From Carex sylvatica (taxonomy: Eukaryota > Streptophyta > Magnoliopsida > Poales > Cyperaceae), in the NCBI GenBank assembly GCA_964058845.1, contig CAXKVR010000194.1, positions 1 to 64,000 on the forward strand: a stretch of DNA of 64,000 nucleotides, written 5' to 3'. The notes below the pieces were generated by a model. The model was not told the DNA's origin. It was given only the letters and a program-made list of their open reading frames with translations, and did not search any database. The stretch's first letter is position 1, and the number at the start of each line of letters is the position of its first letter. Made by a program: the position numbers and the translations under genes. Below, in pieces: positions 13,889 to 36,552 of the stretch.

Positions 13889-16800
13889 TCATCTGACCCG
13901 ACGTGCGAATAAACCTAAAAAATGACCAGATTTTCTTGTACCTGCGGCAGGTACAACATTACTTGTAGATGCTTGACTACTAGATGATTGGCTCGCAGGA
14001 GGGGGGGATGTGTTCTACCAGTTGCTTCAGCAGCAACTCTAGCATTTTCTCTTTCATTGTGTGCGTTTATGGCATCTGGACATAACAATGCAATTCAGTT
14101 ATTACTATAATAAAATCATAAATTAGTGTTATACAAAAAAAAACAATACCTGCTGTGCACATTTCAGAAACAGAACGACGAGCTCAATTTCCCGACGGTC
14201 GCCTACCGCCCATCTCGTCCATGGTCATTACAACACGCTTGTGTCTCCTTCTCCCCTTTCTTATCCATTCTTCTGAAGGAAGTATTCTATCACCGACATA
14301 TGCAGGCCACTCATGTTGATCGAGATAAGAATGGAAAGATCCACCCCAAGTGGAAGCAAGGTAATCGGTACGATACATGTCAGCAACATAGTGATCCTCA
14401 CAGTAGTTTCTCACTCGGCATACCGCCATCACGTGACTACAGGGTATGTGACTTAGTTGGGGTCCTTGGAATGTACAGGTTACCGCCCTGGCATCTCCGA
14501 ATTTAACCACGTACTTGCAAGCCCTCTTCACAAACTCCATAGTGCCATCTGGTTCGCGGCTGGTAGGAACGTATTCATTTGGATTTTGCACTTCGAATTC
14601 TGTACCATCATTTCCCATCGGGATCACGTTCATAGTTGCACCTTTGTCCCTGTGTTGTTTTAGTTTCTCCTCCACCCTTGTTGAAAATGACTGGTTCATC
14701 CTTATTAATTCTGCGGCTTTAGCAAGCCGTTCTTGAAACCAGGCATTTAACTTGTAAAATGTGTCTTCTACAATTGCAGCCACAGGTAACATACGGCTCT
14801 GCTTGAATACTGCATTCAGCGACTCGGACCCGTTGGTGGTCATAATTCCCCAACGCCAACCTCCATCATGAGATTGATATATTTTCTTGTATGCTGCATC
14901 TTCGTTGACATCTCGGAGATTATTTTTGCCGACCTTCATTAAGTAGAGATTTGCCTTTGGCATGTACTACAGAAAAATAAGAAAATAAGATAATATAAGT
15001 AAACAATTGTACTAAAAAATCATCGTCTAAAAATACAATAATATATGTAAACAACTGTAATATATATACCTTTGCAAAACTGTGACTCATCTCTACCACT
15101 CTTCTCGGCTTTTTCTTTCTGCAATTTCGTCTAAATATCTCTAGAACCCACTTGTCATTTCCAGTTGCCTTGGAAAGGTTCTCTGCAACGTGTTGCATAC
15201 ACAACCTGTGCACACACTCGCCAGTACGTGTTGACCAACCGTAATCTTCACGATCAAACACAAATTTTATTCCTTTGTGCTGGTCTGATATCACACAGAA
15301 AAACTTTCCTTCCCCAATCACCCGTCTTCTTAAAAACTGCATAAAGAATCCCCAGTTCTCACCATCCTCTTTACGAACAATTGCAAATGCCAAAGGCAAC
15401 AACTGGTTCTCAGCATCATATGCACATGCTATCAATAACCTCCCCTCATAACGGCCAGACATGAAGCATGCATCAATGCTGATAACGGGTCTGATGTATG
15501 GCACAGCTTGGATACAAGCACCAAAAGCCCATGCTATGCCCTTGAATTGTTGAGCTCCCTCTATTAGCACTCCTTCTTTATCAAAAAAGGGGCCATGCCA
15601 CCTCTCATATACAGTACCAACATTTGTACTTGCCATGGCCTGGAGCAATGGTGCCAGATAGCCGTATGAATCCTTCCAACTACCGAATATTCTGCAAATT
15701 GCAAGTTCACGACCTCTCCACAGCCTGTTGTATTTTAGGGTTACATATTTGTATTTGTGTCTGACGGTTCTAGCCACCGCCTTGATGCTCATGGATGGAT
15801 CCTCCTTAATGTCTTCCTCAATTGCATCGGCAATTAGTGATGCCGTCAGCTGTGAATGGTCTGTCCTAGTGGATGCAGACTTGCATGTATGGGGTGGTTC
15901 ACACTTTTTAATCATCCATGCTTCTCCGGCACCTGCAGGGGTTGCAAAAAGGCGAAACTCACACCGCGGGTGAGTTTTACATAGCACAACTAACCTTGTT
16001 CGATCCCTTTTGTGTATTTTACATTCCCAGTTGCCGTGAACATGAGTCTCGTAGATTTTTTTTATAAGTTCATCTATGTTGGTATAAAGTTGCCCTGGGG
16101 CAAGTTCGTCATTGTATACAACACGAGGGCCAAAATAACTAATGTCTGCCTCTTCAAAAGCTGTGGTATCGTTGAATGTGGTGATCAGATGCTTATTTCC
16201 CCGACCTCTAATTGGGAATTTTTCTTCCCTGGATAAACCTGGTGCAATTGTATCGCCATCTGATAAGTCATCGGATTCTCAAATTCCTTCGTATTCATCC
16301 CCCGTTTCCATTTCCCTTTCTGGTATGGCATCAATAGCATCAACATTAATATCAATATAAGTTTGATTAACGGGTACCGGTCCTGACTCTGGCATAGTTG
16401 GAAATCTAGGGATTATGGGTGTCTGTCTGGGTGGTGGTGGTAACTCTTCAGTATTTTCAGGGGAGTTGTGGTATCCCTGGTTGTCATAAGAGGAGTGGTG
16501 GTGGTACCCCTGGTTGTCATAAGGGGAGTGGTGGTGGTACCCCTGGTTGTCATAAGGGGAGTGGTGGTGGTACCCCTGGTTATCATAAGGGGAGTAGTGG
16601 TGGTACCCCGGGTTGTCATAACCGGAAGGTCCAGCTCCGGCCGCACTAGAAGGTCCAGCCCCACCTCGGGGAACCCTCTTTAAATATATGTCCATTACGG
16701 AGACCCCACTAGACTCAAATTGAGTGTACACAACTCTCCACAAATTCATATCTGTTATTGGAAACCTCACAAAGTAAGGTCTACCCCCCGCCCCACCCCT

Positions 16801-16998
16801 TTGTGAGTTGTCAATCCGTGTAGCCAATTCTATTTCATACCTGTTGGGGTTTACAGCAGTCTTTTCATATATTATCTGCTTAAGTTCCTGAAATGTGGTA
16901 TTTTCATTAACCTCGAAGTCAAATGCCGCGTCTTTCGTGTAATACACGCCATCTACACTCTTTTGTAGCTTGCCGCCCATATACAATGCAACTAACAT
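13889..16998 (-). pseudogene. MuDR-type MULE transposase, broken by two stops and a probable 1-nt deletion
   Basis: Three exons on the minus strand: 16998-15070, 14966-14150 and 14075-13889, with GT-AG introns. The N-terminus (MLVALYMGGKLQ, ~110 residues) is a PB1/ubiquitin-like head typical of plant MULE transposases. A repeat region follows (16,430-16,625; PYDNQGYHHHS about five times), then the zinc-binding and MULE transposase core. Catalytic aspartates lie in ISIDACF (~15,487) and VISDQHKGI (~15,285), a CVHRLCMQHVAENL C..H motif lies between the second Asp and the Glu region, and GIMTTNGSESLNAVFK comes after the intron. A SWIM-like tail (IPCSHVMAVC) is present, though the usual first CxC is CTF. 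In-frame TGA at 16,281-16,279 and 14,186-14,184 both fit CGA-to-TGA. The last exon fits only if one C was lost from the C-run at ~14,001-14,007. Confidence 0.88.
16430..16630 (-). repeat. 33 bp tandem repeat inside the transposase N-terminal region
   Basis: About five to six imperfect 33 bp units encode YDNQGYHHHSP. Positions are read as GTGGTGGTACCCCTGGTTGT on the + strand. The repeat lies between the PB1-like head and the catalytic core, in a Gly/Ser/Pro-rich linker that also contains GAGPSS, the same peptide repeated in the PMD gene of this element. Confidence 0.85.
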
Positions 16999-17300
16999 CT
17001 TTTACTTAACAAACTACATTTAAAAAAAATAATTTTATAAGTATTATAATAATTGTTCAGTAATTATAACGAGCACAATAATAAATGACTAATTAAAAAC
17101 AAATTTTACTTGTTGCTACAGTAATGCTACAGTAATGATACAGTAATACTAATTAATTCTACAGTAATTGACTAATTAGTAATAATTAAATAAAATTTAC
17201 AAAATAATACATGTCAGGAGACGGGCGGTTCGCAGTTTTTTTTCTTTTTGGTTCGGAATGAGGCAGATAAGAGAGAGAATGAGGCAGAGAAGAGAGGAGA
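16999..17300 (-). promoter_or_regulatory. Transposase 5' flank of the MULE
   Basis: AT-rich with TACAGTAATG repeats (17,117-17,170), then a purine-rich GAGGCAGAGAAGAGAGGAGA segment adjoining the right inverted repeat. It should hold the promoter of the transposase; no clear TATA box was chosen. Confidence 0.4.
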
Positions 17301-24498: not shown

Positions 24499-24669
24499 TG
24501 ATATCTCCATATTATATCTGAATTATGGCCCTAATTTACAATGAAACCTGTGCTTTAAAGCCTATTAATGTGGACTTTTTACTTATATTTCGATGAAATG
24601 TGGTACTGCTATGTTTTGTTTGGTATTTTGCAGGAAAAAGGGCGAAAAACTGGTTCTGACAACTTTTCA

Positions 24670-25646
24670 TACGGCCCGTATGATATTCTGTGCGGGCCGT
24701 ACAAGAACTGCCCAACCACACAGAAAGATCCACAACAGAGGCACAAAGTCTCCAAGTCAAAGCCCAGGCATACGGGCCGTACGGGATCCTGTACGGGCCG
24801 TACAAAGCTAATTCGGAAAATCCAGCTGGAATCTGAATTGAGCACAATTTGAGGAGCCGAAAAGGAAACCCCTGGAGGCGTGATCTGGGGCATTAAAGGA
24901 GATATTCCACAGCAGGAAAGGGGATTAATAGCTAATCAATCAATAACTTTCCTATCATTCATTCTATCATTGATTCTTGCTAGGTTTTGGACAAGAGGAA
25001 AAGAAGAAGAGAAGGGAAGAACGCGGTTTCTCCACGGATCTTCGGATTTTCCACTGTTTTGTCATGAACTCTTTTATTCCTTGTTATTTGTGTTATCTTA
25101 TGAACATGAGTAGCTAATTTACTTTGTTTCTAGGGGTAAGATGTAGTTTCTAGTTTTGTTTTGCTTGTATGCTACTTGGATTTTGTGTTGAACGCTTTGT
25201 TTTTACTTTGTTATGTAGTATTTTTATTGCTCTATTTGTGCTTGCTTGAATCTGATTAGTCATCCCGTTAGATGAATGCGCACATCTAAGTGTGGAGCCA
25301 AGTCTATGAAATTCATTCCAACCGAATAAAGTATATGAAGTAGGGTTAAACCAAGGAGTACCCGAAAGGCGAAACTTTCCTTGAGGCGAAAGTCCTTGGA
25401 TACTTTTAGTAAACTAACAAATAACTTAGATAAATTAGGCCAAAATGCGAAAGTTGAGGTTTAACGCATCTAAGAGGGAAGTACTTGAGTCCGGTAATCG
25501 GGTATCAGGCCAAAATGCGAAAGTTGAGGTTAGGTATCTAGATCTGGTCAAAAGAAACCCTAAACACAGTATCAACACAGAAAACAGTAGCTGCAGCATT
25601 AACTTGAGGTCCCATACGGACCGTACGGGAATCTGTACGGGCCGTA
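24670..25646. repeat. Paired TACGGNCCGTA palindromes in the 5' LTR (three pairs)
   Basis: Starts at 24670/24691, 24771/24792 and 25615/25636; every pair has a start-to-start distance of exactly 21 bp. Five of six are perfect palindromes around a variable centre base; 24691 has one change. The same six sit in the 3' LTR. Confidence 0.95.
25351..25399 (+). other. Possible folded RNA element in the Athila LTR
   Basis: CCAAGGA at 25,351 can pair with TCCTTGG at 25,393-25,399; the 35 nt between contain further short complementary blocks (GAAAG/CTTTC, CCTT/AAGG), allowing a compact branched fold. An identical copy is at 35,937-35,985. Whether it lies in R or U5 is not known. Confidence 0.45.
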
Positions 25647-25972
25647 CGCCTTGAGACTGAACAGAAATGAAATCTGAACCCTGGAAACGCCCTTTTATCA
25701 ATTGAAAACAATTTTAATTATCTCTTATTGTCTTTTAATCAGTAGAATTGTTAGAGCTAAAACCAAACCAAATTCTTCTCACTTCTAGAATCTCAAGTGA
25801 TTTTAGGATAAGTATAGTGTTTTTATTCCGTCCCTGTGGATCGATACCTGAGCATACTCAACGACAGGATAGTTCACTTGCTATCTGAATTGACAGAGTA
25901 TAACAAAGGTTTAAGAAGTATAGCTTGCTATACTGAAACTTTTTGGCATATATTCTCGTGCGATCAAGTTTT

Positions 25973-25990
25973 TGGCGCCGTTGCCGGGGA
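25973..25990 (+). other. Primer binding site of Athila (tRNA-Asp type)
   Basis: TGGCGCCGTTGCCGGGGA begins six bases after the 5' LTR. This is the primer site common in plant Athila and related gypsy elements, complementary to the 3' end of tRNA-Asp. Confidence 0.85.
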
Positions 25991-26178
25991 ACGGCAACTA
26001 AAATTCTATACTTTTTCTTATTTTTGCTTGATTCTAGATTTTAATTTTAATTTTTCGTATTCCATCTTTGCAGGAACATACTGGAAGAGTCATTGCCCAA
26101 GAACCACTACCAACTTAGAAGCAAAGGGCAAACCTCCAACACATTTGTTCCAGCGCCACCACATCTGTCACCTCTCCG

Positions 26179-26209
26179 TACGGCCCGTACAAAATTCATA
26201 CAGGCCGTA
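26179..26209. repeat. Motif pair in the Athila leader
   Basis: TACGGCCCGTA at 26179 and TACAGGCCGTA at 26199, 20 bp apart, ahead of the gag ATG. Confidence 0.9.
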
Positions 26210-26251
26210 CAAACCGACAACAGAGGCCAGACAGATCCAGAACAAAGCAAA

Positions 26252-29200
26252 ATGAACAACCACGGTGCTGAACAAGATCCACTCAACGAGGGTACTGGAC
26301 AAGGTCAACCCAACGAGGATCAATACTCTGATGACGAAGGAGCAAACTATGCGCCAAGGACGTTGCGAGAGTTCAATGTCCCGCGAGCTGGAGATGTTAG
26401 AGGAGCAATCCGATTGCCAAGGATTGTAGGCAACCAACCCAACTTCAATCCGGGCGTTGTAAACATCGTGCAACAAAACACATTCCATGGCATGGATCAT
26501 GAGGATCCACATGCCCATGTTCAAACCTTCCTTGAATGCTGTGCCACCATTAAAATTAATGGCGCAACAGCTGATTATATTAGACTTGCTTTATTTCCTT
26601 TCACTCTTAGGGATAAAGCCAAGAAATGGTTAGGGTCATTACCAAGGGATTCAATCACCACTTGGAGGGAATTGTCCAAACTGTTTTTGACCAGATTTTT
26701 TCCCCATAAAAGAACTGCCAAGGTTAGGACCCAACTGACCAGTTTCAAACAAAGGTCTGATGAACCACTGAATGAGGCCTGGGAAAGGTTTAGGGAATTG
26801 CAATACTCTTGCCCACATCATGGTATTCCCGAATGGTTACTTATTCAGTCTTTTTATGCTGGTTTAACTGATACCACTCGTACTTCTGTAGATGCAGTTG
26901 CAGGTGGAGCTCTCATGGATCGAGACGCTACTGAAGCAATGAACTTAATCGACAATATGGCGACTAACCAACAGTGGTCCGGCCGAGAGGGCAATCGAGC
27001 TACTGGAGGAGGCCGACTTGAGCTCGATCAGATCACAGCTCTCACCGCCAAGTTTGACGCCATGCAGAAGGCTTTTGACAAGATGAGTGTCAAAGCACTC
27101 GGTAATCAGCAACCACAGCCTTGTGTTATGTGTGGAGACGAGGGGCACGAGTATGAGAATTGCCCGCTTGCGCAAAGGGATGAAGGGCCCGAGCAAGTTA
27201 ACTCTCTCAACAGTGAACCATCCTACTTCCCAAAACCTCCTTTCAGCCGAACCTATTCCAAGGATCCGATTGAACAACAGAATTGGAGGTGGAAGCAAAA
27301 CAATCCCACACAATTCAACAACAACCCTTCTGGCAGCAACAACAACAACAACCGCAACTTCTACAACAATGCTGCATTCAATAACTCAAACAACCGACCA
27401 CCATATTCTGGACCATCTAAGCCCTATGTTGCTCCTGCAGTAGAAAACTTCATGCATGAACAAGGGAAGATGAATCAAATGCTTTTCGAACAAATGCAAA
27501 CGATCAGTGCTCAATTGGCAAGTTTGGCCCAAAACAAACCCCAAAGTGGGAGCCAAACTGCACCACCACAACCTGGGATGCTACCAAGCCAACCAGAGAT
27601 TAACCCTAGGGGAGAGGCCAAAGCGGTAACATTGCGAAGTGGGACACAGTACCAAGGACCAGCCATACCTGTCGAGCCAGAAGCCGACCATACGGTCCGT
27701 ACAAATCCCATACGGCCCGTACCAACACCCCCTGCGATTTCTGAACAGTCAAAGCCTGATCCGATTGAGGTTGTGACTGAGACAACAGACCATACGGTCC
27801 GTACAAATCCCGTACGGCCCGTACCGAATGAAACTGATAAACAGAAAAAGAAGGTGACCGAGAAACCACCGCCCTACCGGCCACCAGTACCATTTCCACA
27901 GAGACTAGCCGAAACCCGACTCAATGAACAATTCTCAAACTTTCTTGGAGTTCTCAAGCAATTGCACATTACCATCCCATTTACCGAGGCTTTGACCCAA
28001 ATGCCAACCTATGCTAAGTTTCTCAAAGATATCCTATCCAATAAACGAAGCTTGGGGGGGCATGAGACGGTGAAATTGACTGAACAGTGCAGTGCTATCC
28101 TGAGAAATGAACTTCCACCGAAATTAGGAGATCCGGGTAAATTTTCCATTCCATGCACGATTGGCAAAGCAACCATCCGACAAGCTTTATGCGATTTGGG
28201 GGCTAGTGTGAGTCTCATGCCGCGAACTATCTTCGAACGAATGGGTGTAGGCGAGCTTAGACCTACGCGGATGACTTTACAACTTGCGGATTCTTCGGTG
28301 AGACTACCACTTGGCATAGTGGAGGATGTACCGGTTCGAGTCGGTAAGTTCTATGTGCCCGGTGATTTTGTTGTGATGGAAATGGAGGAAGACAAGGAGG
28401 TCCCTATTATTCTAGGACGGCCGTTTTTGAGAACCGCCGGGGCGCTAATCGATGTGAAAAATGGGACTTTAACCTTGAACATTGGAGATGAGAAAGTTCA
28501 CTTTCAAATCGACCGAGCAATGAAGTATCCCGCTCAACCCGAATCGTGTTATATGGTCGATGTGATTGATGAATTAGTTGAAGAGAAGTTAATGGAGCAA
28601 ATCAACAACTCTCTAAGGTATCATTCTGATTTTTTATCTGATTTGCAGGCTGAAACAGGCGATCTTGAGAGAATTTGCGCAGCAGACATGACACCTGTCT
28701 GTCTGGAAGATTTTCCGTACGGGCCGTACACAGATCATACGGACCGTACAACAGACGAATTTAAAACAGAGAAGCTGGAGATTGAGAAGGAACCAAAAGG
28801 CCAGTCTGAAGCTGAGGCATACGGTCCGCACGAAATCCATACGGCCCGTACAACAAGCCAGACAGCACAGACCACTCCCGAATTAAAACCTCTCCCAGCC
28901 ACTCTCAGGTACGAATTCCTTGACTCAGAAAAGACATGTCCTGTCATTGTGAATGCAGGGTTGACCCCTGACCAGACCGCCAAGCTCATGGAGAAGTTGA
29001 GAACCCACAAAAGCGCGATTGGGTATTCTATCAATGACTTGAAGGGGATCGATCCAACCACTTGCACACACAGGATCTTGCTAGAAGACGACCACAAGCC
29101 TTCAGTTGAACACCAAAGACGGCTAAACCCGAATCTAAAAGAGGTAGTAAAGAAAGAAATTTTAAAACTTTATGAAGCAGGTATCATCTACCCGATTTCT

Positions 29201-31900
29201 GACAGCAAATGGGTGAGTCCCGTCCATGTGGTTCCCAAGAAAGGAGGAGCAACAGTGGTGAAAAATGAGAAAGAAGAGATGATTCAAACGCGCGTTGCAA
29301 CCGGTTGGAGGATGTGCATAGATTATCGGAAGCTCAACGCGGCTACACGCAAGGATCACTTTCCCTTGCCATTTGTTGATCAACTCCTTGAGAGGCTTGC
29401 TAACCACTCATATTTTTGTTATCTTGATGGTTATTCAGGTTTCTTTCAGATTCCCATTCACCCGCAGGATCAAGAGAAGACCACATTCACATGCCCATAC
29501 GGTACCTACGCATACCGTAGGATGCCTTTCGGTCTTTGCAATGCACCTGCGACTTTTCAGAGAGCCATGATGGCTATTTTTTCTGATTTTATTGAGAAAG
29601 AAGTTGAAATTTTTATGGATGATTTTTCTGTATACGGTACCTCTTTTGATGCTTGTTTGGCTAACTTGTGTAAGATTTTGCAGAGATGCGAAGAAGTCAA
29701 TTTAGTCCTCAATTGGGAAAAATGTCATTTCATGGTCCAAGAAGGAATTGTCTTGGGGCATGTTATCACCTCTAGAGGGATAGAGGTTGATAAAGCAAAA
29801 ATTGAGGTAATCGAGAAACTCGAAATCCCAACAAATGTCAAGGGGGTTCGAAGTTTTCTTGGACATGCCGGTTTTTATCGCCGTTTCATAAAAGACTTCT
29901 CAAAAATTGCGAAACCTTTGACCAATTTACTTATTAAAGATTCTGATTTTATTTTCACTGATGATTGTGTCAAGTCTTTTTGCAGTTTAAAGGAAGCTCT
30001 TATCTCTGCACCTATCTTACAGCCGCCAGATTGGTCACTACCATTTGAGCTGATGTGCGACGCAAGCGACTACGCAGTCGGAGCAGTTCTGGGGCAACGG
30101 AAAGACAAAAAGCCGTGTGTTATTTACTATGCTAGCAAGGTGCTAGACCCGGCCCAAATGAACTACACCACAACCGAAAAGGAGCTTCTCGCCATTGTAT
30201 TTGCTCTCGACAAATTCAGATCATATCTGGTGGGCTCGAAGATAGTGGTCTACACAGATCATGCCGCACTAAGGTACCTCTTAAGTAAAAAAGATGCAAA
30301 ACCAAGACTGATTAGATGGATTCTTCTTTTGCAGGAGTTCGATCTTGAGATAAGAGATACGAAAGGAGTCGAGAATTCTGTAGCAGACCATCTGTCACGT
30401 CTACATTGGGAAGAAGATACCACAACTAAGCTCCCAATCAATGACTCATTCCCCGATGAACAACTCCTTGCAATCAGTTCTGATCTGGACGACAACCATA
30501 CGGGCCGTACAGAAGTTCATACGGCCTGCACTATCCACCATACGGACCGTACACAAACTCATACGGACCGTACAAGTACCAACCAGTCCAAACAGCAGAC
30601 TCCCTGGTATGCCGACATTGCGAATTACCTGGTCTCTGGAGTTTTGCCCGCCACAATGTCCCAACAGCAGAAGAAGAAACTAAGGTCAGATTCCAAGTAC
30701 TACTTTTGGGACGAGCCCTATCTCTTCAAGGTTGGAGTTGATGGCGTATTCCGACGTTGTGTCCCATTCGAGGAAACAGACTCTATTCTTGCACATTGCC
30801 ACTCGTCCGCTTATGGAGGACACTCTTCATTCTCTAAGACCACTGCCAAGGTATTACAATCTGGTTTCTTTTGGCCTTCTCTTTTTAAAGATGCAAGATC
30901 TTTTGTTATAGCTTGTGATAGGTGCCAAAGAACTGGAAACATGACAAGGCGAAGTGAGATGCCTCTCAACTTTATTCTTGAGGTCGAGATTTTTGATGTT
31001 TGGGGCATCGATTTCATGGGTCCATTCCCATCTTCTCGAGGGAATGAGTATATTTTGGTGGCAGTCGACTATGTATCAAAGTGGGTCGAGGCCATGGCGT
31101 GCCGCAAGGCTGACTCGAATTCGGTAAGAAAGTTTTTCAATGAGATCATTTTCCCTCGTTTTGGGGTGCCTCGAGCTGTCATTAGTGACGGAGGCAAGCA
31201 TTTCATCAATCGACAATTCAAAAAATTATTGAGCCGACATGGGGTGACTCACAAGGTATCAACCTCTTTTCACCCTCAAACTAATGGCCAAGCTGAAATT
31301 TCTAACAGGGAAATCAAGTCGATTTTAGAGAAAACAGTTGCAAGGACAAGGAAGGATTGGGCTTTCAAGCTGCATGATGCACTCTGGGCCTACCGCACCG
31401 CATTCAAGACACCGATTGGCATGAGCCCGTACAAGCTGGTGTATGGAAAGCCGTGTCACCTTCCTGTTGAAATTGAGCACAAAGCATTCTGGGCCACAAG
31501 AGCGATCAACATGGACCTGCTTGCAGCTGGAGAAAAGCGTGTCCTCGACTTGCATGAGTTGGAGGAAATGAGGTTGCATGCATATGAGAATGCGAGATTT
31601 TACAAGGAAAAGACGAAGCGATTGCATGACCAGCGCATTTCGCCTCGCCAGTTCAAAGAGGGAGATCTTGTACTTTTATTTAACGCTAGATTGAGAATTT
31701 TTCCAGGTAAACTCAAATCGAGATGGTCCGGCCCATTTCAGGTGGAGAAAGTGTACCCTTTCGGAGCAATTGATATCTGGAGCAAAGAAAGTGGTACCTT
31801 CAAGGTAAACGGTCAGCGTCTCAAGCACTACGTTGCCGACCACTTGATGGATGAGCGAAATGTTCAGTTTCTTTCTGACCCCGCTCAGATAGAAGTTTAA
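26252..31900 (+). CDS. Athila gag-pol polyprotein
   Basis: An intact frame of 1,882 residues from the first ATG (26,252); the frame is open 53 codons further upstream, but without an ATG. Order: retrotransposon gag domain (~85-200; [19 protein letters not shown]), one CCHC knuckle ([14 protein letters not shown], ~290), aspartic protease ([13 protein letters not shown], ~648), RT (~965-1180; [33 protein letters not shown], catalytic FMDD at ~1122), RNase H ([17 protein letters not shown], ~1268; YTDHAAL), and integrase with an HHCC head (~1515-1560, ending CDRCQR) and DDE core ([28 protein letters not shown]). Palindromic motif pairs sit in the spacers between knuckle and protease, protease and RT, and RNase H and integrase. 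All catalytic residues are present. It should assemble particles, copy RNA and integrate cDNA. Confidence 0.95.
27691..27823. repeat. Two motif pairs between the zinc knuckle and protease
   Basis: Perfect TACGGNCCGTA at 27691/27711 and 27793/27813, each 20 bp apart. The peptide reads HTVRT for the first member and VRPV or IRPV for the second, so the two members of a pair are read in different frames. Confidence 0.93.
28718..28850. repeat. Two motif pairs between protease and RT
   Basis: 28718/28738 (both perfect) and 28820/28840 (first member ends CCGCA), each 20 bp apart. The peptide reads YGPY then HTDRT, and YGPH then HTART. Confidence 0.93.
30499..30572. repeat. Motif quartet between RNase H and integrase
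   Basis: Starts at 30499, 30520, 30541 and 30562: four units at exactly 21 bp. 30520 has two changes. Because 21 is a multiple of 3, these four are in one frame and give HTGRT, HTACT, HTDRT, HTDRT. Confidence 0.93.
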
Positions 31901-32761
31901 GTTGAAAGGTGGTCTAGCTAACGACCTTAAATGAGCGCTTCTTGGGAGGCAACCCAAGCATTTTTAAAATTATTTTGTTTGGTCATTTCTCTTATTGTTA
32001 TTACTTTAGTTTCTAAATATTTAATTTGCTATTAGTTTAATTTTGATTTTTCATTTTGTAGTTGTCTTTCAATTCTGATCAGATAGGAGAAGAAATCATC
32101 TCTGCAGGTTGGTACGGTCCGTACACAATATCATACGGGCCGTAGGGAACCCATCCGACGCAGAAACTCAAGGGGCGCGACCTTTTCTCTTCGCGTTCCT
32201 TCGCATCAATTCGCGTCCCTTCGATTAGACCCTCTTCCCTTTTAAACCCAACCCCCCCCGACAGACTCTACCCCACACCACCTCCTTTTGTCGTTTTCTT
32301 CCTACGGACCGACCACCACCCCGTATAACCAAAACCCTAGCCGCCGCAACTTCTCCTCCGCCGCTCTCCGCCTCTTGCTACCCACCAGCCGCCCCACTCT
32401 CCGCCACCCTTCTATCCGCCTCTAGCGGATCGCTGCCACCTCACCTCCGCACCACCCTTCTCTTTTCCACCGGTCACTGATCTTCTCTAGCGGCTCACCA
32501 CCACCGGTCACCATCTCTAGCAGAGCACCACCGCCCTCGTTCGCTGCTACACCCTCGTGATTCCCTCCAAGCCGCACTACAAATCCCTCGCCGCCGACAA
32601 TTATTCTACCAAGACACCGACCAAACCCTACCAGCCGCCTCCTTCCCCTTTGAGCACACACCAGCCCTACGGCCCGCACAGACTCCCCATACAGGCCGTA
32701 CCAACCACCGTCCGACCCGTACAAATCCCTCTCCGGGCCGTACCACTTCCTACTGACAGCT
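31901..32761 (+). promoter_or_regulatory. Spacer and leader ahead of the Athila extra ORF
   Basis: About 860 bp between pol and the extra ORF. Motif pair at 32113/32134 (21 bp). From 32,260 the sequence becomes C-rich (many CCGCC, CTCC), unlike the rest of the element and like a plant gene 5' leader. A motif quartet (32668, 32690, 32711, 32732; spacings 22, 21, 21; all slightly degenerate) ends 20 bp before the ATG at 32,762. This suggests a separate promoter or splice-derived leader for the extra ORF. Confidence 0.55.
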
Positions 32762-34096
32762 ATGTCTGGTGAGCGCCGTCAAAAGCGGCGCCAAGACCGC
32801 TCCCCCACACCACCCCGTCATCCCTCACCAGAGCCCTATGACTCCGGCTCTGACCGCACTTCCTCTGGTGAATACACCGACCGCGCCGACCGCTTCGCAG
32901 CACGGTACTTTGAAATGCCCACTCGTCGGATGTACGAGAACTTCATCTCTTTACAACGGCGAGTATTCGAGAACACCGCCATGGTTCACTTCGACACACT
33001 CCACGCTCTTGGCGTCGAGGATGATTTCCTCCGTCTCACCGCTGGAATTGGGTTCAGCCCAGATTTCTGGAACATTCGCAACCCCGCCTACGAGATGGAC
33101 ACCAAGGAATTCCTCTCCTCTCTCGAGCTGAAGTTGGACAACCACGATGTCCTCTTCCTCAAATTTCGGCTCTGTAATCAAACCCATCGCGTCTATCTCT
33201 CCTCTCTACGCGAGTGGTTCGGTTTCTATCGCGAGCCCACTACTGACACTCTCAGTTTCCGACCTGGGTGGGATCGAGATACCTTCTGGGCCATGATCAC
33301 CGGCTGCCCTCGCTCCGCCAATGCATCATACCGAGCCCGCTACATCCCTCACCCGGTTCTGCGTATCATCCAGCGCGCCCTTGCTTCTACCATCTTTGCG
33401 CGCGGTGAGACTCAGAACCGCGCCAACACCGTCGACCTCATGCTCATGGATACCATGCTCCGTGCCGACTCCGAGTATCCAGACTTAGCCCTTCTCATGG
33501 TCCAGCACTGGATTGGGCAGCAGTCCAAAACCAGGCACGGTGGCAAGATCAAAATTGGGGCTTATGTCGAGGTCCTTAAGCAACGCCTTGGCTTGGGTGA
33601 GTATCCAGGTCGCGACCCATGTCCGGGCCCCACTCTGATGGACCTTGAGAGCTACCGCCTGGCTCTCTTCCTCACTATCTCCCGGGGCCCGGCCGGTCAC
33701 TCTGACTACTATGAGTGGCGCTTTGCCGATGGCTCTTCCCGCCGCCTACCATTTGGACCATCCATCACCGTGGACGACCCCTCCACCTGGTTGGTCTCCG
33801 CTACTCCACCTCCTGCCTCTGACATCCCCAGTACCTCCTTCCAGCCACCCCCATCTGTGTATGCCCGCCCTTGCCCAGCTGACCCCTCTCTTAGGGATCT
33901 CTACTACCTCATGACTGATATCCGGGCCACTCAGCTGCAGCAGGACCGCTACATCACAGCCATCCAGGAGCAGACGGCCATTCACACCACTCGACTGGAT
34001 GAGATTAGTGGCAGCATGTTTGACTATGCCGAGCGTCTTGGTGACATCGAGGACCAGTTTCGCGACTGGCGCTTCGACCCCTCTTCTGACTACTGA
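32762..34096 (+). CDS. Athila extra ORF (env-position, ATHILA ORF1-like protein)
   Basis: An intact 444-residue protein starting MSGERRQKRRQD. Residues 1-45 are basic and Pro/Ser-rich, with a possible nuclear localisation signal (RRQKRRQDR). Residues ~45-320 form the globular part known from the env-position ORF of Athila elements (blocks RRMYENFISLQRRVFENT, LHALGVEDDFLRL, VYLSSLREWFGFY). Residues ~335-370 are Pro-rich. Residues ~375-435 are a predicted coiled coil (LQQDRYITAIQEQTAIHTTRL) with an acidic end. No signal peptide or membrane segment is apparent, so envelope function is unlikely in this copy. It has higher GC, especially C at third positions, than gag-pol. Family assignment is from memory of ATHILA-type proteins; molecular role unknown. 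Confidence 0.8.
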   Translation: MSGERRQKRRQDRSPTPPRHPSPEPYDSGSDRTSSGEYTDRADRFAARYFEMPTRRMYENFISLQRRVFENTAMVHFDTLHALGVEDDFLRLTAGIGFSPDFWNIRNPAYEMDTKEFLSSLELKLDNHDVLFLKFRLCNQTHRVYLSSLREWFGFYREPTTDTLSFRPGWDRDTFWAMITGCPRSANASYRARYIPHPVLRIIQRALASTIFARGETQNRANTVDLMLMDTMLRADSEYPDLALLMVQHWIGQQSKTRHGGKIKIGAYVEVLKQRLGLGEYPGRDPCPGPTLMDLESYRLALFLTISRGPAGHSDYYEWRFADGSSRRLPFGPSITVDDPSTWLVSATPPPASDIPSTSFQPPPSVYARPCPADPSLRDLYYLMTDIRATQLQQDRYITAIQEQTAIHTTRLDEISGSMFDYAERLGDIEDQFRDWRFDPSSDY

Positions 34097-35084
34097 TCAG
34101 GTTTCTTTCTCCCTACCCTAGCTTATTTATTTTTCCCATTACATATCCTGAAGCATTGAGGACAATGCTCGGACTAAGCTTGGGGGGGTGATTAGTTATT
34201 TTCTTTATTTTGCATTTAGTTTGTCTTAGTTTGTTCCTGTGTTTGCATGTTTTGAGGATTAAATCTGTGTGAATTGCGTGAATTAGGGTTCAATTTGAAA
34301 AATTTTGGTTGTGAAATGGTTGAATTTGGGAAATTGGAAATAACCACACATTTGGTTGAAAGAATTGTAGACGATAGTCTGTTTTGGGACTTTGTGGGAT
34401 TGAATTGAATTGTGTCAAGAAAGCATTTGAAACCGGAATATGCCTTGTAAAAATAGAAAAAATGGGATTTCAAAACAATAGAAAGATTTGGATATCCATT
34501 GGTATGAATGAATATCATTGGATGTGTGTATTCATGATGTATACGAGGATAAAAGATAAAAAAAATTCTTGAAAAGAATGAAAAGATGGAGAATATAAGA
34601 GTACCGGCAATAAGCCATGATTTGGCGCCTTTGAGCTCGTCTCCCATACGGACCGTACCCAGATCATACGGGCCGTACACCTAAAAGAAAAAATGGTATC
34701 AGAGCCTTTACAAACATCAACACACGAAGTCCGTGACTTTCTGACCTAAGCTTGTTCCAAGCTTGGGGGAATTTCCAACCACAAATGAGGGCATAAATTT
34801 GGTGAAGAATGAACTATTGATACGTTTGATTGCTTAATTTTTACAAATAGCATTACATTCTTGAAGTTAGGGTTTGATCAATTGAGTTGTGGGGTGAATT
34901 AAATTGACCAAAGGAAACCAAGTTACTATCCAAAATGACTCTAATGGATTTCTAACGAACGCAAGATCATGCACATTTTTCCTCTTAGTAGATTAAGTTG
35001 CATTTAGGTAAGTCCAACAACCCGAACCACACCTAAGTTAGAATTTTTGCTTGAGGACAAGCAAAGTTCAAGCTTGGGGGAATT
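34097..35084 (+). other. Athila 3' non-coding region with repeated polypurine tracts
   Basis: Three copies of AAGCTTGGGGG: ~34,177 (AAGCTTGGGGGGGTG), ~34,758 and ~35,071, the last (AGCTTGGGGGAATT) abutting the 3' LTR as the functional polypurine tract. The first and last copies are each preceded by GAGGACAA. A motif pair lies at 34647/34667 (20 bp apart). The rest is AT-rich and non-coding. Confidence 0.8.
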
Positions 35085-36552
35085 TGATATCTCCATATTA
35101 TATCTGAATTATGGCCCTAATTTACAATGAAACCTGTGCTTTAAAGCCTATTAATGTGGACTTTTTACTTATATTTCGATGAAATGTGGTACTGCTATGT
35201 TTTGTTTGGTATTTTGCAGGAAAAAGGGCGAAAAACTGGTTCTGACAACTTTTCATACGGCCCGTATGATATTCTGTGCGGGCCGTACAAGAACTGCCCA
35301 ACCACACAGAAAGATCCACAACAGAGGCACAAAGTCTCCAAGTCAAAGCCCAGGCATACGGGCCGTACGGGATCCTGTACGGGCCGTACAAAGCTAATTC
35401 GGAAAATCCAGCTGGAATCTGAATTGAGCACAATTTGAGGAGCCGAAAAGGAAACCCCTGGAGGCGTGATCTGGGGCATTAAAGGAGATATTCCACAGCA
35501 GGAAAGGGGATTAATAGCTAATCAATCAATAACTTTCCTATCATTCATTCTATCATTGATTCTTGCTAGGTTTTGGACAAGAGGAAAAGAAGAAGAGAAG
35601 GGAAGAACGCGGTTTCTCCACGGATCTTCGGATTTTCCACTGTTTTGTCATGAACTCTTTTATTCCTTGTTATTTGTGTTATCTTATGAACATGAGTAGC
35701 TAATTTACTTTGTTTCTAGGGGTAAGATGTAGTTTCTAGTTTTGTTTTGCTTGTATGCTACTTGGATTTTGTGTTGAACGCTTTGTTTTTACTTTGTTAT
35801 GTAGTATTTTTATTGCTCTATTTGTGCTTGCTTGAATCTGATTAGTCATCCCGTTAGATGAATGCGCACATCTAAGTGTGGAGCCAAGTCTATGAAATTC
35901 ATTCCAACCGAATAAAGTATATGAAGTAGGGTTAAACCAAGGAGTACCCGAAAGGCGAAACTTTCCTTGAGGCGAAAGTCCTTGGATACTTTTAGTAAAC
36001 TAACAAATAACTTAGATAAATTAGGCCAAAATGCGAAAGTTGAGGTTTAACGCATCTAAGAGGGAAGTACTTGAGTCCGGTAATCGGGTATCAGGCCAAA
36101 ATGCGAAAGTTGAGGTTAGGTATCTAGATCTGGTCAAAAGAAACCCTAAACACAGTATCAACACAGAAAACAGTAGCTGCAGCATTAACTTGAGGTCCCA
36201 TACGGACCGTACGGGAATCTGTACGGGCCGTACGCCTTGAGACTGAACAGAAATGAAATCTGAACCCTGGAAACGCCCTTTTATCAATTGAAAACAATTT
36301 TAATTATCTCTTATTGTCTTTTAATCAGTAGAATTGTTAGAGCTAAAACCAAACCAAATTCTTCTCACTTCTAGAATCTCAAGTGATTTTAGGATAAGTA
36401 TAGTGTTTTTATTCCGTCCCTGTGGATCGATACCTGAGCATACTCAACGACAGGATAGTTCACTTGCTATCTGAATTGACAGAGTATAACAAAGGTTTAA
36501 GAAGTATAGCTTGCTATACTGAAACTTTTTGGCATATATTCTCGTGCGATCA
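35085..36552 (+). repeat. 3' LTR of Athila
   Basis: Copy of 24,499-25,966 at an offset of 10,586 bp with no difference seen on reading. Motifs at 35256/35277, 35357/35378 and 36201/36222. Confidence 0.97.

Follow-up and report, generated by a model that had tools for sequence, protein, structure and literature searches.

What purpose could so many paired copies of one short palindrome serve in a retrotransposon? The question is raised by a 64,000-nucleotide stretch of Carex sylvatica DNA (contig CAXKVR010000194.1, positions 1 to 64,000; hereafter the window), in which an element carries 34 sites of the 11-bp palindrome TACGGNCCGTA, 25 of them exact. All 34 starts and the 25 perfect copies given in a preliminary description of this DNA were recovered. 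That description took the array for paired operators spread over the whole retrotransposon, which is also the best reading that we can offer from the sequence.

The element is an Athila-type Ty3/gypsy retrotransposon, here assigned to family A. Its LTRs are identical across 1468 bases, starting with TG and ending with CA, and the element is bordered on both sides by a 5-bp target duplication, GACTC; these two features indicate a recent insertion. The protease, reverse transcriptase (RT), RNase H, and integrase occur in Ty3/gypsy order in the Pfam spans, with protease matches near or under the curated cut-offs, and an extra sense ORF on the 3' side (ORF3) matches PF03078 with 56.5 bits against a cut-off of 20.2, as found in the Athila lineage. 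The element and its operator sites are arranged as follows.

24499..36552, plus strand: Athila-type Ty3/gypsy retrotransposon, family A (identical LTR block, flanks, and Pfam domains)
24499..25966, plus strand: 5' LTR with three operator pairs (24670/24691, 24771/24792, and 25615/25636)
26051..31900, plus strand: gag-pol open frame, 1949 codons from stop to stop (gag, protease, RT, RNase H, and integrase)
26179..26209, plus strand: leader operator pair, upstream of the first Met of gag-pol (26252)
27691..27823, plus strand: gag-protease linker with two operator pairs (27691/27711 and 27793/27813)
28718..28850, plus strand: protease-RT linker with two operator pairs (28718/28738 and 28820/28840); families B, C, and D have like-placed arrays
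30499..30572, plus strand: RNase H-integrase linker with four operators in 21-bp steps (site scan and Pfam spans)
32113..32144, plus strand: operator pair in the integrase-ORF3 interval (site scan)
32668..32742, plus strand: four degenerate operators in 21-22 bp steps, the last ending 19 bases upstream of the ORF3 ATG
32762..34096, plus strand: ORF3, ATHILA ORF-1 family (PF03078, by Pfam), candidate trans-acting factor
34647..34677, plus strand: operator pair in the interval between ORF3 and the 3' LTR (site scan)
35085..36552, plus strand: 3' LTR, identical to the 5' LTR, with the same three pairs (35256/35277, 35357/35378, and 36201/36222)

Other features were noted in the window. Rfam snoR71 (RF00097) scored above its gathering score at 26720-26826 on the minus strand, antisense within gag, and this Rfam family may overlap retrotransposon sequence. 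MULE-type transposase frames (PF10551) were found at 14184-17001 on the minus strand. A 253-residue open frame at 707-1468 on the plus strand resembled the end of a Ty1/copia pol by eye and had no Pfam match at E 0.001.

The pairing of the sites was confirmed, with spacings of 20, 21, or 22 bp within clusters and no solitary site among those listed. As the preliminary description also stated, conserved domains are free of sites: the gag-pol sites, comprising one pair upstream of the first Met and others within three inter-domain linkers, fall outside the Pfam domain spans. Throughout 64 Mb in 950 contigs, which form the basis of all genome-wide counts in this study, exact TACGGNCCGTA occurred 1166 times, versus 23 for a reversed-word control, and 401 pairs of exact copies were separated by 0-30 bp, versus none for the control. 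The gap was 9-10 bp in 400 of these pairs, corresponding to a period of 20-21 bp and to the sharp peak at 20-22 bp that had been predicted. Exact sites were absent from 300 first-order Markov shuffles of the window element. A chance origin of the sites is ruled out by the reversed-word controls, the pair spacing, and these shuffles. Additionally, family A sites use all three reading frames and encode peptides as unlike as HTVRT, IRPVP, and YGPY, which indicates that the DNA word, not the peptide, is kept. In the coding linkers, a DNA word is thus maintained in several frames where the peptide may differ freely.

Sequence constraint was assessed by mapping family A copies onto the window, using 26 copies for the RT region and 29 for the LTR. 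The former set comprised 26 of 30 loci (left out were L036, which is the window itself, L035, and L063 and L064 of family B), and the latter comprised L001 and L007-L034 (left out were L002-L004, which overlap L001, and L005 and L006 of the window) and sometimes includes both LTRs from one element. Compared with the window, the RT region differed at non-CpG positions by 0.012 per cell within palindrome arms, with values of 0.085 for spacers, 0.046 for the 40-bp flanks, and 0.028 for all remaining positions. Since a window-referenced count favours sites that match in the window, pairwise diversity was calculated with the window excluded, giving 0.032 for arms, 0.152 for centres, 0.101 for spacers, 0.067 for flanks, and 0.039 for the rest of the RT region. 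The corresponding values for the LTR were 0.013, 0.081, 0.044, 0.015 (40-bp flanks), and 0.028; LTR arms are thus below spacers and centres, yet barely below their near flanks. CpG decay was also considered as a methylation footprint. CpG positions in the RT region differed by 0.025 per cell within motifs, compared with 0.075 elsewhere, but this reduced motif rate is inseparable from general constraint because non-CpG motif positions are lowered too.

These values bear on the proposal that the arrays are a functionless by-product of local tandem duplication that amplified a word. The pairs at 27691 and 27793 agree at 8 of 9 compared spacer bases, and the targets of VANC proteins are reported to grow through tandem repeats (PMC5735166). 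Nevertheless, duplication is a very improbable explanation, given that the 40-bp flanks of three doubled pairs agree at just 9-15 of 40 bases, that arms are less variable than spacers and centres, and that the sister subfamilies carry different words at corresponding positions.

Diverged members of the family had been expected to share the motif; instead, the subfamilies sampled have a similar layout built from different CGG-based words. Subfamilies were sorted by RT identity to the window into B (C157 and C298, 92%), C (C1 and C31, 83-84%), and D (C140 and C281, 81%). In family B, a degenerate ACACGGNCCGTGT precedes ORF3 and also occurs in each of the two gag-pol linkers read, in steps of 15, 20, and 21 bp. 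Family C has TTGCGGNCCGCAA in steps of 21-22 bp, with TTG in 30 of the 36 flanks of 18 sites. In family D, CGGNCCG has only 2 scattered copies in 10 kb, and the units are AGTGCGG...CCGCACT with half-site starts 14-15 bp apart. Two such units adjoin back to back, which restores a unit period of 20-21 bp. The D-like copies on C537 and C34 contain an extra compact form, AGTGCGTCCGCACT, 21 bp from a wide unit. Genome-wide, the family D quartet was found 723 times and the family C pair 46 times, each with 0 for the control, and two CGGNCCG at 16-24 bp were found 1133 times, with 12 for the control. Among the copies read (others may differ), the protease-RT linker arrays of all four families precede the beginning of the RT query match by 450-710 bp, and the pre-ORF3 arrays lie within about 400 bp upstream of the ORF3 start. 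A single motif for all Athila elements is ruled out in the subfamilies sampled, as the words of B, C, and D differ. The genome has at least four operator dialects with a common two-turn layout.

Further arrays were observed beside these families. A CGGNCCG array of another type, in which GGTACCCGGTCCGGGTA-like words follow each other in 18-bp steps, occurs at C1:26357, C1:365295, and C1:366696. On C43, ATTGCGGNCCGCAAT pairs bracket a family A copy (L010 50-340 and L011 3560-3800), whose insertion target seems to have been an element bearing C-type arrays.

The centre base of the palindrome had been described as varying freely. It does vary, but complementary centres are rare in exact adjacent pairs, a pattern that bears on a reading in which the copies of a pair fold together as RNA or single-strand hairpins and serve RNA packaging, reverse transcription, or the supply of small RNA. 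Palindromes of maize Sireviruses reportedly have a small-RNA role, and RNA folding of six exact pairs gave a two-copy hairpin in every case. However, the central mismatch stayed in five of the six, and the sixth closed with a U-G pair. Complementary centres were found in 1 of 29 unique exact family A pairs versus 27 of 83 imperfect ones (copies and window; Fisher p 0.001, with related copies and a pattern spotted post hoc), in 0 of 8 exact versus 6 of 8 imperfect adjacent pairs in the window, and in none of 10 family C pairs. In addition, loop length by itself demands no 20-21 bp rule, the half-sites of family D are differently arranged, and no known Rfam RNA lies over the operators, the one match in the element being snoR71 in gag. 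Hairpin function is therefore improbable; a tentative lead is that perfect hairpins may do harm and not be what the pairs are for.

The predicted confinement of the arrays to this Athila family was contradicted by seven elements whose RT is 41-42% identical to that of the window and which carry C- or D-type arrays as direct repeats on either side of the RT match. The D-type examples (C1:431719, C2:214782, C8:691932, and C9:50545) account for 4 of 4 RT matches of ≤44% on contigs C1-C9, among the matches listed, and the C-type examples (C91:342055, C99:22653, and C360:44253) account for 3 of 73 RT matches of ≤44%, with all 46 C pairs covered. Three ORF3 searches, which score best candidates alone, marked no ORF3 in these seven elements. 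A motif class common to several lineages favours either a host factor or Athila proteins that act in trans.

Under the former reading, a plant transcription factor family would read CGG half-sites, and the element lineages would have reached variants of flank, orientation, and spacing that fit its members. The CGG/CCG core common to A, B, and C, and present in D as GCGG, is consistent with this reading, as are the C- and D-type arrays at elements without an ORF3 match and the CGG-CCG core of 12 of 13 RM boxes in Sireviruses, which belong to another superfamily (PMC2829016). On the other hand, a single host factor poorly explains why the sister subfamilies of one genome should have exchanged the word at successive sites and yet kept the layout. 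We regard host-factor operators as plausible but somewhat doubtful.

A factor encoded by the element itself was sought in ORF3, counterparts of which were found in all four subfamilies. The identity of ORF3 to that of the window is 46-48% in B, 30-31% in C, and 27% in D, a divergence far beyond that of RT, which supports ORF3 as the candidate; fast divergence may also have other causes. The ORF3 alignment contains invariant residues, including FARGET. The top 19-residue Kyte-Doolittle mean, a guide to the transmembrane segment expected of an envelope-like protein, was 0.93-1.43 in four pieces (those of C and D without their C-terminal ends), and a short basic patch lies near the ORF3 start in A, C, and D. 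In sunflower, a nuclear localisation signal is predicted in an Athila sense ORF that resembles PF20167, a domain related in that study to PF03078 (PMC11728184). The lack of any hydropathy mean above 1.43, the basic patches, and the nuclear prediction for this related ORF support the candidacy as well.

The candidacy is weakened by the domain searches: Pfam found no DNA-binding domain in four ORF3 proteins, two of them partial, and neither ORF3 nor its alignment had a PDB sequence match at E up to 1. A single-sequence AlphaFold model of the window ORF3 had a mean pLDDT of 34, with no DNA-binding fold seen. A search of the genome for Transposase_28 (PF04195) gave no match but is uninformative, as control genomes were equally without one. 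The arrays at the seven elements without a marked ORF3 also weaken the candidacy, as does a D-type copy, L065 (G000:C140:254500-264499), which has kept intact arrays and an open gag-pol with almost no ORF3 remaining. Its ORF3 match stops at query residue 61, eight residues beyond the first Met of the query.

ORF3 matches also occur inside long open frames. At G000:C692:15259-16152 (with L071), the match lies within a frame of 1474 residues whose upstream part resembles protease followed by the beginning of RT; from the sequence, the RT-to-integrase region seems to have been deleted and ORF3 fused in frame. Similar matches were found at C44:228078-228971 (1469 residues) and C109:166810-167703 (829 residues).

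Weighing this evidence, we tentatively favour, at slightly below even probability, operators for a dimeric factor, most likely ORF3. The sites are paired two turns apart, their arms are quieter than spacers and centres, they disregard the reading frame, and their word changes between subfamilies; from these observations we infer that a protein binds them, which protein this is, and what it does. One protein dimer would dock on the two NNCGG half-sites of each 11-bp palindrome, and a second dimer two helical turns away would bind jointly with it on one face of the DNA. Arrays in the LTRs, leader, coding linkers, and the region before ORF3 could gather a sequence-specific factor on the element, where it may sustain expression as an activator or an anti-silencing platform. 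If this factor is the fast-evolving ORF3 protein, each subfamily would possess a private operator word.

Support for paired operators read by ORF3 comes from the nearly invariant 20-21 bp pairing, the quiet arms with the window excluded, the three frames, and the other CGG words of B, C, and D at about two-turn steps in like places, whereas the small difference between LTR arms and flanks weakens the operator reading. Thus, the two-turn spacing, quiet arms, and frame independence uphold the dimer-binding operators of the preliminary description, but its motif is neither shared by diverged members nor confined to Athila. A narrower proposal, that ORF3 is a nuclear DNA-binding protein that reads the paired CGG operators of its own family and counters silencing, with ORF3-less elements that share operator words using the protein in trans, is rather unlikely. 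If true, Athila LTR retrotransposons would run a self-encoded, family-specific regulatory system through ORF3, long called envelope-like.

The grammar of the arrays resembles that of the fungal Zn2Cys6 (Gal4-type) operators, in which specificity is set by the orientation and spacing of CGG half-sites. This likeness is an analogy of grammar alone, as the organisms differ and Pfam found no Zn2Cys6 domain in ORF3. For Athila itself, reviews still term the extra ORFs env-like and debate their function (PMC7264820, PMC11728184), and a 2026 sunflower paper asks whether Athila ORFs shape methylation and leaves the question open (PMC12844716). A literature search of titles and abstract starts returned no description of such Athila arrays, which is not proof of absence.

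The analogy with Sireviruses drawn in the preliminary description proved closer than claimed. The RM boxes of Sireviruses are element-specific palindromes, nearly all with the CGG-CCG core, clustered in the LTRs and upstream of ENV; their clusters form CpG islands, and their linker copies are confined to ENV-bearing elements (PMC2829016). In the parts of that paper considered here, RMs are presented as a feature of Sireviruses that classic Ty1/copia elements lack, and Athila is mentioned on other points. Like RM boxes, the Athila arrays consist of a many-copy, element-specific palindromic word with a CGG-CCG core, with copies in the LTRs (window) and upstream of the extra gene (window, B, C, and D). 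Unlike them, they are carried by a Ty3/gypsy element with ATHILA ORF-1, not by a Ty1/copia Sirevirus. The Athila arrays extend the RM boxes, and the new features are the pairing rule, the dialects (several sister-subfamily words per genome), the second half-site geometry of family D, and the sites in gag-pol coding linkers. Athila, certain elements of 41-42% RT identity, and, according to the literature, Sireviruses all have the CGG core, which suggests that plant LTR retrotransposons follow a common logic of control, reached via a shared host factor or by repeated invention.

VANDAL transposons combine private words with a fast-diverging element protein, VANC, that removes methylation, and both binding and demethylation are reported as shown there (PMC5735166, PMC10398659). 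The Athila arrays are similar in being dense arrays of family-specific short words that differ between sisters and lie beside a fast-diverging extra ORF. They differ in that VANDALs are MULE DNA transposons, whose words (YAGTATTAY and AGTTGTCC/AGTTGTAC) have one orientation and are not described as palindromes in the portions of these papers considered, and in that some Athila operators sit in coding linkers. ORF3 was not classed as a VANC because DUF1985, the domain carried by VANC, was not listed by Pfam at E up to 10 in four ORF3 proteins, two of them partial. By analogy, VANC/VANDAL provides the closest working logic for the Athila arrays. With private words next to an ORF that diverges fast, the role of the extra Athila ORF becomes a four-by-four binding question.
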